A stretch of 53,211 nucleotides of DNA from Planctomycetota bacterium (GTDB lineage: Bacteria > Planctomycetota > Phycisphaerae > UBA1845 > UTPLA1): assembly GCA_016235815.1 (NCBI GenBank), contig JACRIM010000007.1, positions 1 through 53,211 of the forward strand. Reading direction: 5' to 3'. Numbering within the stretch: the first letter of the stretch is position 1; each line of letters begins with the position of its first letter. Below the pieces are notes generated by a model. It saw only the letters and a list, made by a program, of their open reading frames with translations, did no database searches and was not told where the DNA came from. The position numbers were made by a program, and so were the translations under genes. Below, in pieces: positions 35,154 through 41,900 of the stretch.

Positions 35154-36017
35154 TCAGCCCTTGACCGCCCCCATGCTCAGGCCGCTGACGAATTGTTTCT
35201 GGGCCGTGAAGAAGAGCACGACGCAGGGGATCATGGTCACAATGCTGGCGGCCATGAGCAAGTGAGCCTCTCGGAAGTCGCCGTAGGTATTTTGAAATGA
35301 GTTTAATGCGACGGCGAGCGTCATCCGCTCCTCGGTTTGCAGGTAGATCAGCGGGCCGAGGAAATCATTCCATACCCCGATGAACGTGAAGATCGCGGTA
35401 ATGGCGATCACCGGTTTGCAGATCGGCATCATGATCTGCGCCCAAATGCGTAGGTGCCCGCAGCCGTCGATGCGCGCGGCTTCGATGAGTGCCTCGGGCA
35501 CTTGTGCGAAGAACTGCCGGAACATGAAGATGAAGAACGGAGTGCCGAAGAAGAGCGGGATGACCAACGGGGCGATGGTGTCGATCCAGCCGAACGAGCG
35601 GAACATGATGAACATCGGAATCATGGTCACTTGCGCGGGCAGCATCATCGTGGCGATCATGACGATGAACGTGCCTTCGCGACCGCGGAAGCGCAGCCGG
35701 GCGAAGGAATAACCGACGAGACTGCACGAGACGATTTGGCCGACCACGCACAGGGTGGTGATGATGATCGTGTTGGAAAGCGCGTCAAGGAAGCCGAACC
35801 AAGGGCGGCTGCCCATGCGTTTGAGTGCGTCGTAATAGTTGTGCCACTGCGGGTCGCGCGGAAGCCAATTAAACGTGCCGGCAGAACCGGAAACGGTGGC
35901 TTCAGCCGGAGTGGAGAGACTGGTCGTGAGCATCCACCAGAATGGGAAGATCATGCCGATGCTGCCGAGCAGTAGGCACGCGAGCGGCACCACCTTTTTC
36001 ACCGACCGCATCCTCAC
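35154..36017 (-). CDS. MalG-type sugar ABC transporter permease
   Basis: 287 residues; GTG 36017 overlapping the stop of the four-helix-bundle gene (GTGA); an ATG two codons later is an alternative. Six membrane helices, a periplasmic loop after helix 1 (TTSLSTPAEATVSGSAG), and the EAA loop IEAARIDGCGHLRIWAQIMM that docks the ATPase. It ends in GLSMGAVKG, typical for MalG homologues. It should pair with the MalF half of the fusion protein at 36598 for uptake of malto-oligosaccharides. No ATPase gene lies in the window. Confidence 0.92.
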   Translation of the reverse strand: MRMRSVKKVVPLACLLLGSIGMIFPFWWMLTTSLSTPAEATVSGSAGTFNWLPRDPQWHNYYDALKRMGSRPWFGFLDALSNTIIITTLCVVGQIVSCSLVGYSFARLRFRGREGTFIVMIATMMLPAQVTMIPMFIMFRSFGWIDTIAPLVIPLFFGTPFFIFMFRQFFAQVPEALIEAARIDGCGHLRIWAQIMMPICKPVIAITAIFTFIGVWNDFLGPLIYLQTEERMTLAVALNSFQNTYGDFREAHLLMAASIVTMIPCVVLFFTAQKQFVSGLSMGAVKG

Positions 36018-36472
36018 TTCGCACCTGCCTTTGTTCTTCGGGGATCGGGGGACCGGGGGATCGGGGGACCGGGTTGCCGTGCTCGAATCGTTGCCTTTGT
36101 GGATATGGAATCGAGTCTTGTTTCCAAGGATCGGATCATTGCCCGAAGCATTCGTTCAATTGATGCTACCCTTTTCTGGACGACGGCAAGTTCCTTGTCC
36201 CCTAAGTACCCAAGTGATTCCGCTAAGAGCAGTTGCGTTTCGATCTCGGCAACCGAGCCATTCGCAATCCAAAGGAATCGGATGTAATCACGTGTTCCCC
36301 CGCGGTTATAGCCCTCAGCGATGTTTGATGGGACCGACACGGCAGCTTTTCGCAATTGAGCGACCAATCCGAATCGTTCGTCGCTCGGAAACCGGCGAGT
36401 CAGTTGGTACACATCTTTGCATAATGTAAATGCCCACTGCCACACTTCAAGTTCACGATAGGTACTCAACAT
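36014..36472 (-). CDS. Four-helix-bundle protein (23S rRNA IVS-encoded / S23 family)
   Basis: 152 residues; ATG 36472 with AGGG 9 nt upstream. The core (residues 1-125) matches the S23/IVS family: YRELEVWQWAFTLCKDVYQL, FGLVAQLRKAAVSVPSNIAE (with the hallmark SNIAEG), DYIRFLWIANGSVAEIETQL and YLGDKELAVVQKRVASIERM. Family members are often encoded in intervening sequences of 23S rRNA and are related to the Avd accessory protein of diversity-generating retroelements. The last 25 residues are Pro-rich and come from the octamer array, so the family core is complete and has been extended. The stop overlaps malG, which couples their translation. Confidence 0.88.
   Translation of the reverse strand: MLSTYRELEVWQWAFTLCKDVYQLTRRFPSDERFGLVAQLRKAAVSVPSNIAEGYNRGGTRDYIRFLWIANGSVAEIETQLLLAESLGYLGDKELAVVQKRVASIERMLRAMIRSLETRLDSISTKATIRARQPGPPIPRSPDPRRTKAGAK
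36040..36073 (+). repeat. Left octamer array, GGGGAYCG x4.25
   Basis: GGGGATCG and GGGGACCG alternate (36040, 36048, 36056, 36064), followed by GG. Five G-runs separated by 3 nt give a G-quadruplex-capable plus strand. On the minus strand it encodes the PGPPIPRSPDPR tail of the four-helix-bundle protein. Confidence 0.95.
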
Positions 36473-36526
36473 GATTCTTTACCCTTCATACGCGCGGATT
36501 CATGTGTCGCTCCATACCTCACACCT

Positions 36527-36597
36527 GGTCCCCAGATCCCCAGATCCCCAGATCCCCTGATCCCCAGGTCCCCAGATCCCCAGATCCCCTGATCCCC
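36527..36597 (-). repeat. Right octamer array, GGGGAYCN x9
   Basis: Read on the plus strand the units are GRTCCCCA or GRTCCCCT, nine in a row. Two carry GGTC (at 36527 and 36567) and seven carry GATC. It is the inverted counterpart of the array at 36040, with A or T instead of G at the variable base. It is noncoding and forms the 5' leader side of the four-helix-bundle gene. Confidence 0.95.
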
Positions 36598-38970
36598 TTA
36601 CTTCAGCCCCTCATAGTAAACGAAGCGTTTCGTGCCCTTCATGACAGCGAGCGTCAGCGCAAGAATGATCAACAAAAGGAGCCACGCCATCGCCGACGAA
36701 TAGCCCATCTCGTGAAAGTCGAATGCTTGGTTGTACAAATACACGACATAGAACCGCGTCGCATGTCCCGGGCCGCCGCCGGTCATCACGTACGCCTGCG
36801 TGAACACCTGAAACGACCCGATGATCGCCATGATGAAATTGAAAAATAGCACCGGGCTGAGCATCGGCAGCGTCACGTTCCGGAATCGCTTCCAACCAAG
36901 CGCGCCGTCGATGGCCGCGGCCTCGTACAAGTCTTTGGGGATTCCCTTCAGACCCGCAAGGTAGATCATCATCGTGCCGCCGATGGCCCAGAGGTTGATG
37001 AACGCGAAGGCCGGCACGCCCCATGTCTCCGCGTCCTTCTCGAAACACGCGGGCATATGCAGCGCGGCCGGCAGAAGCGGATCGACGATCGCCTTGATCA
37101 GGCCGTGCTCGTGGTGGAACACCCACTTCCACATCACCGCCATGCCCACGCCCGCGAGCACGCCGGGCAGATACCAGATCGAGCGAAACACCCCCATCCA
37201 CCGGCTCTCGCGGTTGAGAAGCATCGCTGCGATGAGTGCTGCGACCTGGCCTGTTGGCACCGTGAGGATCGCGTACCACGTCGTCGCCTTCAGGGCGCGA
37301 TAGAACGTCGCATCTTTTGTAAAGAGCGAGCGGAAATTGTCCCAGCCGACAAACTGGGCGTGATCGAGCGTTGTTAGGGAACTCCACCGGCAGAATGAGA
37401 GCACCAGCGACAGAAACACCGGAAACGCCGTGAACGCCATGAAGCCGATGACCCACGGCGAGATCATGCCCATGCCCGCGACTTCCTCGGCCAACTCGCC
37501 GCCGCGCGGTCGGCCGCGCCACCAGACGAATGCGGCAATTCCGGCCATCGCCGCAAGCGGCAGCATCGTCATGGTGACGACGCGCCCCCACGGCACGATG
37601 CGGTCGGCGCTGGCCACATCTTCGCGCCGCGCATTCTCCGTCCACTCGCGCTCCAGCCGATCCAGCGCGGGGGCGATCGGCCGGTTTAGTTTGAATATCT
37701 CTTCGCAGGCCACGCGAAGCTGCTGTTGAAACTCAGGGTCGGGCGGGAAGTCGGTCGGCTCGGCGTTTTCCGCAGCCGTGAGAAAGACGCCGGCGTTCTT
37801 TGGCCGCTTGGTTCGCTCGGCCTCCACCGCCGCCTCAGCCACCTTGCGCAACACTGGGATCGCCAGCCCCGCGTCGGCCATCAGCGCCTGACCCTTCGCG
37901 CTGGTCAGATACTTCACGAATCGCCACGACTCGTTTTTGTGTTGGCCCGCTTCGGCGATGCCCCATGCGACGGTGAAGACGCCGTTTTTCTTTGGCAGGC
38001 CGGGAACATGCGGCAGCGGCGCGAGGTCCCAGTCGAAGCCTTCGATCTGTTGGAAGATCGGCGCCTTCCAGCGGCCATAAGGCCCGGTCATGCCGACGTT
38101 GCCCGCGAGGAATGGCTCCTGCATGGTTTCAAGCTGCGTCTTCGCGGAGACGAGCGTGCGCGTTTCGTTGTGGTACCAGCCTTGCAGCTTGGTCATCGCC
38201 GCGACGAGCGTGGGATCGGTGAAGTGATAGGGCCGCGTCCAGCCGGGCGACGCAAAGTCGACGCCGTGCGTCCAGAGGTAGATGCGAACCATCTGCTCCC
38301 AACTGACAAAGTCCGCGCCGTAGCAACCGGGCTGCTTTCCAATGGCCCGCGCCGCGGTGATGAATTCATCCCACGTCCAACCGGTGGGCGATGGTTCGGG
38401 TACGCCCGCCTTCTTGAACAGGTCCTTGTTGTAATAGAAGCCCACGGTGGTGAAATCCTTGGGCAGTCCGACGAGCTTGCCCTTGCCGATCTCACCAGTG
38501 TCGCCGTTGACGCGGAAGCACTTGATGACCGCCGGGAAAAAGTCGTCGAGCTGAATCGTCGCCTCGCCGCGGGCCTTGTCCGCCGCGATGAACTGCTCCA
38601 CATCGGCGAGCAGGTTCTTCTGCGCGAGGTCGGAGACGTTTTCCAGACCGAGATAGAACACATCCGGCGGATCGCCCGCTGCGAACATCGTCTGAAGCTT
38701 TGTTCGCACGGCCGCCGCCTGGCCGAGGTTCATGCGGACGATCTTGATGTCCTTATTTTCCGGCTGGCGCTCGAAGTCTTCCGCGAGCCGGCGAACGATG
38801 TCGTCCTCGGCCTTGTCGCCCCAGTGCAGCACGCGAATCGGCGTGCGGCCGTCGGCGTCGCTCTTTTTTGTCAGAAATCGATAGCCCTGCCAACCGAATG
38901 CCCAGACCACAAGCATGACCGCGGCAACGGCCACCGCCGCCCGTGCCCCCCGGCCGATCTGTTGCAGCAT
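36598..38970 (-). CDS. MalE-MalF fusion: tethered sugar-binding protein plus ABC permease
   Basis: 790 residues from ATG 38970; a TTG at 39027 would add 19 residues and overlap the upstream gene. Order: a membrane helix (about 11-31), a family-1 extracellular solute-binding domain (about 43-440; TPIRVLHWGDKAEDDIVRRL, DPPDVFYLGLENVSDLAQ and VGFYYNKDLFKKAGVPEP), a second helix (about 462-482) and a MalF-type permease (about 500-790). The permease carries the EAA loop YEAAAIDGALGWKRFRNVTL. The binding protein is thus tied to the transporter instead of diffusing in the periplasm. The stop codon touches the octamer array of the inserted element. Confidence 0.9.
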   Translation of the reverse strand: MLQQIGRGARAAVAVAAVMLVVWAFGWQGYRFLTKKSDADGRTPIRVLHWGDKAEDDIVRRLAEDFERQPENKDIKIVRMNLGQAAAVRTKLQTMFAAGDPPDVFYLGLENVSDLAQKNLLADVEQFIAADKARGEATIQLDDFFPAVIKCFRVNGDTGEIGKGKLVGLPKDFTTVGFYYNKDLFKKAGVPEPSPTGWTWDEFITAARAIGKQPGCYGADFVSWEQMVRIYLWTHGVDFASPGWTRPYHFTDPTLVAAMTKLQGWYHNETRTLVSAKTQLETMQEPFLAGNVGMTGPYGRWKAPIFQQIEGFDWDLAPLPHVPGLPKKNGVFTVAWGIAEAGQHKNESWRFVKYLTSAKGQALMADAGLAIPVLRKVAEAAVEAERTKRPKNAGVFLTAAENAEPTDFPPDPEFQQQLRVACEEIFKLNRPIAPALDRLEREWTENARREDVASADRIVPWGRVVTMTMLPLAAMAGIAAFVWWRGRPRGGELAEEVAGMGMISPWVIGFMAFTAFPVFLSLVLSFCRWSSLTTLDHAQFVGWDNFRSLFTKDATFYRALKATTWYAILTVPTGQVAALIAAMLLNRESRWMGVFRSIWYLPGVLAGVGMAVMWKWVFHHEHGLIKAIVDPLLPAALHMPACFEKDAETWGVPAFAFINLWAIGGTMMIYLAGLKGIPKDLYEAAAIDGALGWKRFRNVTLPMLSPVLFFNFIMAIIGSFQVFTQAYVMTGGGPGHATRFYVVYLYNQAFDFHEMGYSSAMAWLLLLIILALTLAVMKGTKRFVYYEGLK

Positions 38971-38989
38971 TCGTTCCAATGGAGGTGTC

Positions 38990-41900
38990 TCACGACTTAA
39001 CGAAGATGGCCGCCGTTCGCGGCTCAATCATGCTTCCATGCAGTCGGCCGTTTTCCACGTTGAGAGTCGGTTTGTGCTTACCCGTCGGCCGAACAACCGC
39101 GCGCGATGCCGCGTCCTTTGCGTCAACCACTTCATACACCTTGGGGTCGTCGGCGCGATCGACATGCGTCCCTTCAGGCCACGGCGACGGCAGGTCGAGC
39201 CGGTGCGGTTTGTCGCTGTTGTTGAAGACAACGACCACGCGCTCGCTGCCAAGCGAGCGGCAGAATGCAAACACGGCATGATCGTCGCGGGCGATGATTG
39301 GTTCGAACGAGCCGAGTTGCAGCGCGGGGAACGTGTTGCGAATCGCAATGAGTCGCTGGTGATACTCAAACAGGCCCGGCTCGATCCGCTCGTCCGGATC
39401 GTCGTAGGGCATCAGGTCTTCCCACCACATCGGCTTGCGATCGGATGGATCATCCGCGCCATACATGCCAACCTCATCGCCGTAGTAGATCATCGGCGCG
39501 CCGAGAAACGTCATCTGAAAGGCGACCATGGCCTTCAGCTTGTGGTAGCACTCGCTCGTCGGCCGGGCGACGACATAGTTCGGGCCGTTGTCCTGCTGGC
39601 GGTTGGCCTTGTCGTATTCGAGGTCGGGGTTCATGAACATCGACGCGACACGGTCGGTGTCGTGGCTGCAGTAGAGATTCTGCAGAACATAGTTCACCTG
39701 CGGTGCGTACCAGTCGAGATTGCGCTGCAGTTCCGCCTGGAACTCGCTTGGCTTGCTCACCTTCTTCTGATTCACAAAAAACCGCTGCGCCGCCCGGGCG
39801 AAGGGATAGTTCATCACGGCGTCAAAGGTCTGCCCGTCGAGCCACGACTTCGACTCTTCCCAAATCTCCGCAACGATGTACCCATTGGGATTAATCGACT
39901 TCACCAGCTTGCGCCAATCACGCCAGAAATTCGCGTTGATGTCGGCCGCGACGTCGAGCCGCCAACCGTCGATGCCGTCGGAAGGGTCGCCGTCGCCGTT
40001 CGGGTCCATCCATCGGCGCGTAACAGCGAAGAGATGCTCGCGCACAGGCACGGCCAATCCCAGCGCGTCGTCGTGTTTCAATCGCGGCAGCGAACCATCG
40101 TCCTTATCCCATGCCTTGTAGTGAAACGGCTTGAAGCTGGTGATATCGAACCAGCCGACGTACTCCGACTTCTCGCCGTTCTTCATCACATCCTTAAAGG
40201 CCCAGAAGTCGCGGCCGACGTGGTTGAAGACGCCGTCGAGGACGACCTTGAAGCCCTGTCGGTGCGCCTCTTTCACGAAGTCGAGAAAAATCTTGTCGGT
40301 CTCCGACCACTGCCACGTCTTGGGGTCCGTCGTCTCGCCTTTGACCTTCTTGAGACTGCCCTTCACGCCAAAGTAATCGTCGATGTGCCGATAGTCCGAT
40401 GCGTCGTACTTGTGCATGGACTCGGCGAGAAACATCGGGTTGAAGTAAATCGCGGTGATGCCGAGCTTTTGCAGATACGGCAGCTTCTCCTTCACCCCCT
40501 GAATATCGCCGCCATAGCGCCGGTCAAAAATGAAATCCCAAAAGTCCCCGGACTCGACGTAGGTCTTTCCCTCAGTGCCTTTGTGCCTCTGTGCCTTCGT
40601 GCCTTCAGCCGACCCCTTATACGGCTTGTACCACTCATGCCTCCACGGCACCGTTGTCGGCGGGTCGTTCGATGCGTCGCCGTTGCGGAATCGCTCGGGG
40701 AAAATCTGATACCACACGGCTCGCTTGGCCCAGTCTGGTGTTTCGAACGACATGCGGGTGTCCGGTGCAAAGGGTCGTGGTAACAGCGCGATCTTCTCAT
40801 TCGCGGCGAAAGAGTGTGGCCCGTCGGCGTCGAGGATGCAATGCTCCTTGCCGTCCTCGATCAGAAAGGTATACAGGATTGGCCATCGTTCGGGCAAACA
40901 TATCGTCGACCAATAGTCGAAACCATCATGCGAGAGCACCTTTGACAGTGGGATCGGCTCACCCCGAGTGCTCTGGTCATCGTTGAAGAACTGTGCAGAC
41001 ACGGCCTTCGCATCGTCCGCCAGCGTTCGCATGCGAAACGAGATCTGCTTATAGCCAATGCTGGCGAAGTATCCGGGGTCCATCGGTTCATGCTTGACGG
41101 CGTTTTCATTCACGTCGTCGAGTTTCGCCGTACCCAGTACCGACGGATCGACGCCAACACGAAATCCGCTGTTGAATCCTCCCTTGCCATCCGACTCGCG
41201 ATACTTGGGATCGGCGCCCGGGTCTTCGAGTGCAATACAACCGTTAACAAGAAACTTGTAGTGGTAAAGGCCATCTGGAATCTCGATAAATCGTTTGAAC
41301 GTCACCGGCGGCCCAACCGCCCAAAGCTCACAGTCTCCCGCCCTCCAGTTATTGAAATCTCCCACGACCTCGACTCGCTCAACCGTAATTCCTTTGAGCG
41401 ACTCGGCGAATCGCGCGGGTGTGAATTCGAATTGCCTCCAGGACTTTGACAGAGTCAATCCCCGGCGATGCATGTCGAGTACCACAAGGTAGTCGGTCTT
41501 GGCTTCGACTTTCGTCTTCAGTGGGCCAATGGACAGTATTCCATTGGAAGGTTTGAGCTGGGAGCTGAAATCGAGCTTGATGTCATCAGATTTTTCGGAA
41601 CGGTAGATTGCTCCAAAGAGATTATTCGCCAATGGCGCCATTTCGATCTGAATTGGTTTTCCGTATGGTGCTGGTACCTCATCGCGAATTACAAAGCCAT
41701 TACCGATTGGGAGATGTTGTCTCTTTTCCCTCCAGGCGGTTTGTTGACCATCGTCAACCGTCAACTCAATTCGGTAATCCAACGACATCGGAATGTCGAC
41801 GATGACGGGTTCAGGAGTGCCTTCCTTTTTTGTGACGAATTCCTTGTCAAAAGGCGGATACGTTTGCGAGCTGATTCGCCACTTATACGATTTGATCGGA

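Follow-up and report, generated by a model that had tools for sequence, protein, structure and literature searches.

What does a gene of the S23 family, encoding a 23S rRNA-intervening-sequence (IVS) protein, do between two transporter genes, and what keeps the short repeats on either side of it alike? The window analyzed here is a whole contig of 53 kb (C49) from a source genome of 4.58 Mb (G000). Along its minus strand, malEF is followed by nine octamers, then by the S23 gene, four octamers facing the other way, and malG. The names malEF and malG are labels given in the original prediction; profiles give solute-binding and permease domains, and the malEF-like neighbor is a single ORF with both.

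The Element at the malEF-malG Junction

The features of the locus, in the order of transcription, are the following.

36598..39027, minus strand: upstream host gene, malEF-like, solute-binding protein fused to permease (domain matches)
36527..36597, minus strand: upstream arm of nine octamers (sense GGGGAYCN), beginning directly 3′ of the malEF stop
36014..36472, minus strand: S23 gene, 152 aa, four-helix bundle, 23S rRNA-intervening-sequence protein (PF05635/TIGR02436)
36040..36071, minus strand: downstream arm of four octamers (NGRTCCCC in the sense direction), read in frame as part of S23
35154..36017, minus strand: downstream host gene, malG-like permease with a GTG start (domain match)

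The original prediction described nine plus four GGGGAYCN units, inverted around an S23/IVS-type gene, with one array touching the malEF stop and the other 22 nt from the malG start, and both arrays were located where these distances place them. On the plus strand, nine GRTCCCC words start from 36527 to 36591, and the last one ends at 36597, adjoining the malEF stop codon (36598-36600). On the same strand, the four GGGGAYCN units begin at 36040, 36048, 36056, and 36064, leaving a gap of 22 nt (36018-36039) to the malG GTG. These two arms are the only runs of at least three GGGGAYCN units in the 53-kb window, and in the predicted RNA fold they pair with each other (-220.6 kcal/mol, z -4.1). The S23 ORF runs through the downstream array, which encodes the C-terminal tail PGPPIPRSPDPR, and its TGA stop overlaps the malG GTG start as GTGA, an overlap that had also been claimed.

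The S23 gene product matches PF05635 (E 7.3e-36, 123.1 bits, cut-off 33.8) and TIGR02436 (118.3 bits, cut-off 24). Its Pfam matches are PF05635 and bAvd, the latter below cut-off (30.9 bits of 40), with no match to a Y1 (HUH) transposase; the Avd model NF033474 is also below cut-off (25 bits of 80). A sequence search for solved structures gave one relative, Xanthomonas XCC0516 (2GSC). To our knowledge, S23 is not a known nuclease, and its own role in the element, as proposed below, is one that we infer. S23/TIGR02436 genes are spread over numerous bacterial phyla, and one or more archaeal genomes (L123) have them too; the source genome has seven PF05635 matches, six of them above cut-off. Matches were also found in 36 plasmid records, where the commonest name was Nostoc (12), and none were found among 50,697 phage records.

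Inverted Arrays Around S23 Genes in General

In the source genome, an array finder placed arrays on both sides of S23 at four loci (L001, L002, L003, and L005) and on one side at L004, and at L006 arrays were seen by eye only. Units found at these loci include GGGGAYC, AGGCACA, GATCTGA, and AATAGCG; the unit varies from locus to locus, yet the two arms of each locus match. The array finder found none at L007 (C46), a weak PF05635 match below cut-off, the flanks of which carry GGTCCTAT-like words.

For a diverse set, the best 80 of at least 588 GTDB relatives were taken, and 77 were usable after three with short flanks were dropped. The flanks were counted as joined when an inverted repeat between them scored at least 14. 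By this measure, an inverted repeat joined the flanks in 56 of the 77 loci from the best 80 of at least 588, compared with 5/770 when flanks from different loci were paired (mismatched pairs) and 2/385 after shuffling; the other 21 of these 77 fell below the threshold. Similar results were obtained for the source genome and its relatives, where 25 of 35 loci had the repeat and 10 were below threshold (mismatched pairs, 8/350; shuffles, 1/175). The association is also local. Among 66 loci with full flanks (14 of the 80 were dropped for incomplete flanks), the S23 gene was bracketed in 48, and gene-sized windows upstream and downstream were bracketed in 0/66 and 0/66, although single arrays lacking a partner were also present in 3-7 of the 66 control windows. 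The array period was mostly 7 (72 arrays) or 8 (21), with periods of 9 (4), 6 (1), and 12 (1) making up the rest. Chance or shared low complexity as the source of the paired arrays is ruled out by the mismatched pairs, the shuffles, and the neighboring windows. S23 genes elsewhere are thus flanked by inverted short arrays, as counted in 56/77 and 48/66 loci, and the source-genome element belongs to this general pattern.

Occupied and Empty Host Junctions

The host genes identified by NCBIfam names were carA and carB (L101), nuoC and nuoD (L154), and atpG and atpD (L005); carA-carB (L098), nuoC-nuoD (L088), and accB-accC (L158) were recognized by eye. Upstream and downstream of its S23 gene, a Ramlibacter locus (L174) resembles the carA-carB locus of Xanthomonas. 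The malEF-malG element is not within a 23S rRNA gene, its flanks being the binding-protein/permease ORF and the permease ORF, and six 23S rRNA motifs had no match in the S23 loci examined. Neighbors were co-directional in 46 of 71 loci by a crude ORF count that misreads at least one locus (L154), and this number is given little weight because the ORF calls are crude.

The malEF-malG junction was surveyed at 30 malEF loci. Five partial matches (L053-L057) were left out and three of the remaining 25 had no readable malG, hence 22 junctions were read. Of these, 16 were empty, five held an S23 gene (G000, G007, G050, G019, and G025), and one (G059) held a GxxExxY gene with inverted arrays. The empty gaps were estimated at -28 to 78 nt, with the genes estimated to overlap in 10 of the 16. 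By eye, the units at the five S23 copies are GGGGATC, GGGGAYT, GGGGCCGA, GGGCGCA, and GGATTGA. Empty sites therefore exist in relatives, at 16 of 22 readable junctions, and these, with the inverted arrays that flank S23 genes elsewhere, support the original proposal of a mobile IVS-like element.

At nuoC-nuoD, 20 of 30 loci held S23, seven were empty (gap 15-91 nt), and three held other genes, the S23 share being inflated because the 30 loci were the best matches of 144 matching genomes. Overlaps at empty nuoC-nuoD junctions read GTGA (L364), ATGA (L365), and TGATG (L360). Within one family, the units that follow the nuoC stop are GGTGAAT, TAGCGAA, GGCAGTC, GGCAGTA, and GTCGGTC. Only in 6 of 20 cases did an element's own right arm match as well as or better than any other, and 37 of 380 cross pairs attained the own median; cross pairs score high because many copies have a common unit. 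The carA-carB and nuoC-nuoD junctions were searched for clean empty sites with a target duplication, and no duplication was definable; in the other genomes read, carA-carB was occupied by other sequence, with no clean empty site. No transposition event was seen among the compared loci.

As a side observation, carA-carB and nuoC-nuoD also carry varied, unrelated small genes without arrays (L201-L226, L354, L355, and L357); these junctions are general insertion-tolerant sites.

An Element Inside an Error-Prone DNA Polymerase Gene

On contig C28 (L002), the second S23 gene of the source genome is nested in a gene for an error-prone DNA polymerase (NF004225, scoring 1172 bits with a cut-off of 939) and uses a frame other than that of its host. 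No stop interrupts the host frame, which runs straight across the element for 1306 codons in total and for 1101 within the locus. Contig C9 carries another polymerase match, a distant one at 35% identity. The polymerase gene was examined at 29 loci, of which 28 were read (G006 was unreadable). In nine loci, from nine genomes that include the source, there is an insert, with a linker of 221-353 aa, while the linker is uninterrupted, at 52-59 aa, in 18 of the 28; in G042 it is 110 aa. All nine insert copies have an S23 match within the polymerase gene and a host frame that stays open across the element.

A codon-shuffle test was applied to seven of the nine copies, which were placed by homology and form the fair test of a nested frame. 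The +2 frame over the S23 domain was free of stops in these seven, where a total of about 18.5 was expected. In the same frame, 100 non-nested S23 genes had 567 stops against 735 expected, and 6 of the 100 were stop-free against 1.3 expected; S23 genes are therefore generally mildly stop-poor in that frame. Four of 115 loci were dropped from the stop count, and 11 S23 genes were classed as nested. Most simply, the polymerase host is translated through the element.

Another sense frame is also open through the S23 element and beyond at L060, L062, L093, and L150, four of the 11 genes classed as nested, where zero stops prove nothing because the loci were chosen for a long open frame. Separately, one polymerase gene (L385, G029:C4) holds two S23 copies in an open frame of 1748 codons.

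Gene-Less Mini-Elements and Coupled Arms

Array pairs also occur without a gene. Among 20 chosen stretches around array matches in three Xanthomonas genomes, 18 had an inverted array pair. In these mini-elements, a short loop lies between the paired arrays, and the ends are like those of the carAB S23 element. The other two stretches, L288 and L297, had no inverted array pair; at L288 (1-260), a loop-plus-array segment stands in about three tandem copies, as if half-elements had been duplicated. Query matches numbered 38-53 in the four Xanthomonas genomes that have S23 at carA-carB and 3-33 in the other 31 of the 35 compared; these counts include carA/carB matches and come from related genomes. 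A PF05635 match was absent in three Xanthomonas genomes, two of which (G096 and G101) still gave 23 and 33 query matches. Dispersed arrays therefore need no resident S23.

The purL gene, identified by family scan, contains two mini-elements, and its frame is open through both in 30 of 30 genomes. The units are GGGACC, GGGAAT, or GGGATT, and the class of the left unit equals that of the right in 28/30 genomes at one site and 29/30 at the other. The second site has GGGAAT and GGGATT forms with similar loops, so both arms changed there while the loop stayed. All 30 aligned genomes (of 35 found) were occupied, with no empty purL mini-element site among them. The purL counts, like those for purifying selection given below, come from related genomes, so few independent events underlie them.

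Reading of the Element

We put the probability at about 60% that the element is an IVS-like insertion element in protein-coding operons or genes, with its ends kept matched at the DNA level. On the best reading, it represents a widespread class of about 500-600 bp in which an S23 (Avd-like) gene lies between inverted tandem arrays with a 7-9-nt unit, and which is of the same kind as the S23-bearing intervening sequences of 23S rRNA. Such an element would enter at overlapping stop and start codons or flexible linkers, where harm is least, and translation of S23 would re-couple the downstream gene, at malG by the GTGA. The arms may be kept alike by DNA-level copying in a hairpin, through strand switching together with repeat slippage, and a new unit could thereby spread to both. 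S23 would act in trans on the array hairpins, and the mini-elements would be non-autonomous derivatives. Spread would probably be infrequent and, as in homing, faithful to the site.

A tree of 37 S23 proteins, part of those found, contains a malEF-malG clade (0.898) and a polymerase clade (0.952); L004 was left out, and stops were written as X in the input. Both clades mix families f1 and f4, a pattern compatible with transfer to the same site in another genome or with old lineages and loss. Clades that keep to one site could reflect ancient vertical inheritance and loss as well as homing. The own-unit pattern was found in 3 of 61 genomes (G000, G007, and G010), and G000 and G007 carry S23 with GGGGA-type units at malEF-malG.

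A more far-reaching possibility, which we hold only tentatively, is that S23 is the trans-acting protein of an unrecognized mobile system. This protein would rewrite arrays on both arms, home into gene junctions and linkers, mobilize gene-less hairpins, and be able to live overprinted in host genes, the 23S rRNA IVS being a special case. In such a system, S23 would perhaps work with a polymerase or a reverse transcriptase, like its relative Avd.

RNA Stem or Upkeep at the DNA Level

The insertion-element reading places the matching of the arms in DNA. Across 81 S23 elements, arm mismatches scored in gene sense comprised 62 G:U and 66 A:C (p 0.79), in a test that was run without a positive control on a known RNA stem; the corresponding counts were 8 and 7 for 19 nuoC-nuoD elements and 10 and 10 for 19 GxxExxY elements. 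Selection for an RNA stem would tolerate G:U above A:C, therefore the near-equal counts speak against it. In addition, the host frame runs through the elements in the polymerase gene and purL, and the mRNA must therefore stay whole there. Equal mismatches and open host frames argue that the arms are maintained as DNA; the simplest known process for this would be slippage combined with strand switching within a hairpin.

It is thus unlikely that the arrays are an RNA-level IVS, in which a selected mRNA stem is cut by RNase III so that the malEF and malG transcripts are separated. The pairing of the arms in the predicted fold (z -4.1) and the 46 of 71 co-directional neighbors in the crude ORF count would fit such a stem, as would the cleavage by RNase III in vitro of a Coxiella rRNA IVS with S23 (PMC4990558). 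Against this stand the missing excess of G:U (62 to 66, with no positive control) and the open host frames in the polymerase gene and purL, both of which need uncut mRNA. The RNase III cutting envisaged in the original prediction is therefore unsupported, although the predicted stem pairs on paper, so the malEF-malG transcript may still be cleaved.

Passive Repeats and Host Adaptation

Arrays also occur singly in the source genome. Three-unit GGGGAYCN matches, with overlapping ones counted, number 20 in the 4.58 Mb against 0 for a reversed-pattern control, and arrays of this unit stand at five further places, each without an inverted partner. One of these (L012 1501-1532, C45) lies inside a mutS frame (NF003810), which it leaves unbroken; the other four (L008, L010, L023, and L025) have no S23 nearby. 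The arrays of this genome fit the definition of short tandemly repeated repetitive (STRR) sequences as tandem 7-8-nt units dispersed in a genome.

If tandem repeats arose and were homogenized anywhere by slippage and strand switching, S23 could be an accidental passenger. Single arrays without S23 in the source genome would agree with this, and so would the Xanthomonas heptamer arrays, inverted pairs included, reported in a paper whose main text does not contain the term S23 (PMC4692102). The reading is nevertheless improbable, as the association with S23 is strong and local (48/66 loci against 0/66 and 0/66 windows) and one S23 lineage shows purifying selection. The latter follows from a median dN/dS of 0.116 for 12 Xanthomonas S23 genes of one allele type (62 non-independent pairs), nine of which have accC downstream by motif.

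By a strict motif, accC lies downstream of S23 in 23 of 28 Xanthomonas loci, carB in one, and four are unmatched; 21 of the 23 accC-followed loci have the inverted repeat. A similarly improbable reading, in which S23 is a host-adaptive gene that aids multi-subunit enzymes (acc, nuo, car, atp, and the ABC transporter) and the host keeps the arrays for regulation or coupling, could draw on this accC linkage, on the dN/dS, and on the recurrence of enzyme-complex junctions, but many relatives are without S23 at the malEF-malG and polymerase sites, the hosts are functionally unrelated, and polymerase overprinting and gene-less copies better fit an insertion element.

Relation to Known Systems

Rickettsia palindromic elements are inserted in frame into coding genes and are not known to carry a gene or tandem arrays; their in-frame location in coding genes is shared by the elements described here. 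In REPIN-RAYT systems, the RAYT is a Y1 transposase and the REPs are single palindromes, whereas the present elements have tandem arrays and a four-helix bundle. The likeness lies in dispersed gene-less hairpins beside a gene with related ends (PMC3116915).

The closest parallel is with rRNA. In the 23S IVS of Coxiella, tandem heptamers (GACAGAT) precede an S23 ORF and there is a 28-bp terminal inverted repeat, and IVSs with an S23 ORF are also described in Leptospira and Brucella (PMC4990558). The heptamers and terminal repeat of Coxiella strengthen the parallel with the malEF-malG element, where terminal inverted repeats likewise surround an S23 ORF. The 23S IVS differs in its rRNA site and its excision by RNase III (PMC4990558); the present elements differ in lying at operon junctions or in coding genes, in host frames that are read through, in having arrays on both sides, and in the existence of gene-less copies. 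PF05635 resembles Avd of diversity-generating retroelements in sequence and structure (PMC10053308), whereas for the S23 of this element the Avd models stay below cut-off.

Heptamer repeats have been described on their own as GGGAATC in Xanthomonas and GGGGA(T/C)T in Nostoc (Rehm et al., 2015, PMC4692102). Those of Xanthomonas have the same unit class as the elements, with 70 inverted pairs in Xcc and 75 in Xac, and were called quadruplex-forming and generally not tied to mobile elements (PMC4692102). The TAACTGA repeats of Beggiatoaceae are similarly intergenic tandem heptamers with a patchy distribution across phyla, but are direct repeats near start codons, and the main text of that paper makes no mention of S23 (PMC4679880). 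In the literature covered, mainly outside subscription journals, nothing was found that connects S23 genes to inverted tandem arrays within protein-coding genes. The combination of S23 with inverted 7-9-nt arrays unites rRNA intervening sequences, the G-rich heptamers of Xanthomonas, and orphan four-helix-bundle genes, and the tie between S23 and the arrays makes the old question of IVS protein function testable. It also exposes unusual genome evolution, in which an element has its own gene in another frame while the frame of a DNA polymerase is kept open, and in which repeat arms switch unit together.

S23 is not the sole cargo found between inverted arrays. GxxExxY/PDDEXK_3 genes, at PF13366 loci of relatives (L256-L285), are flanked, as often as S23, by inverted 8-10-nt repeats of the type CACNGAG, with inverted flanks in 19 of 29 loci against 47 of 812 mismatched pairs.
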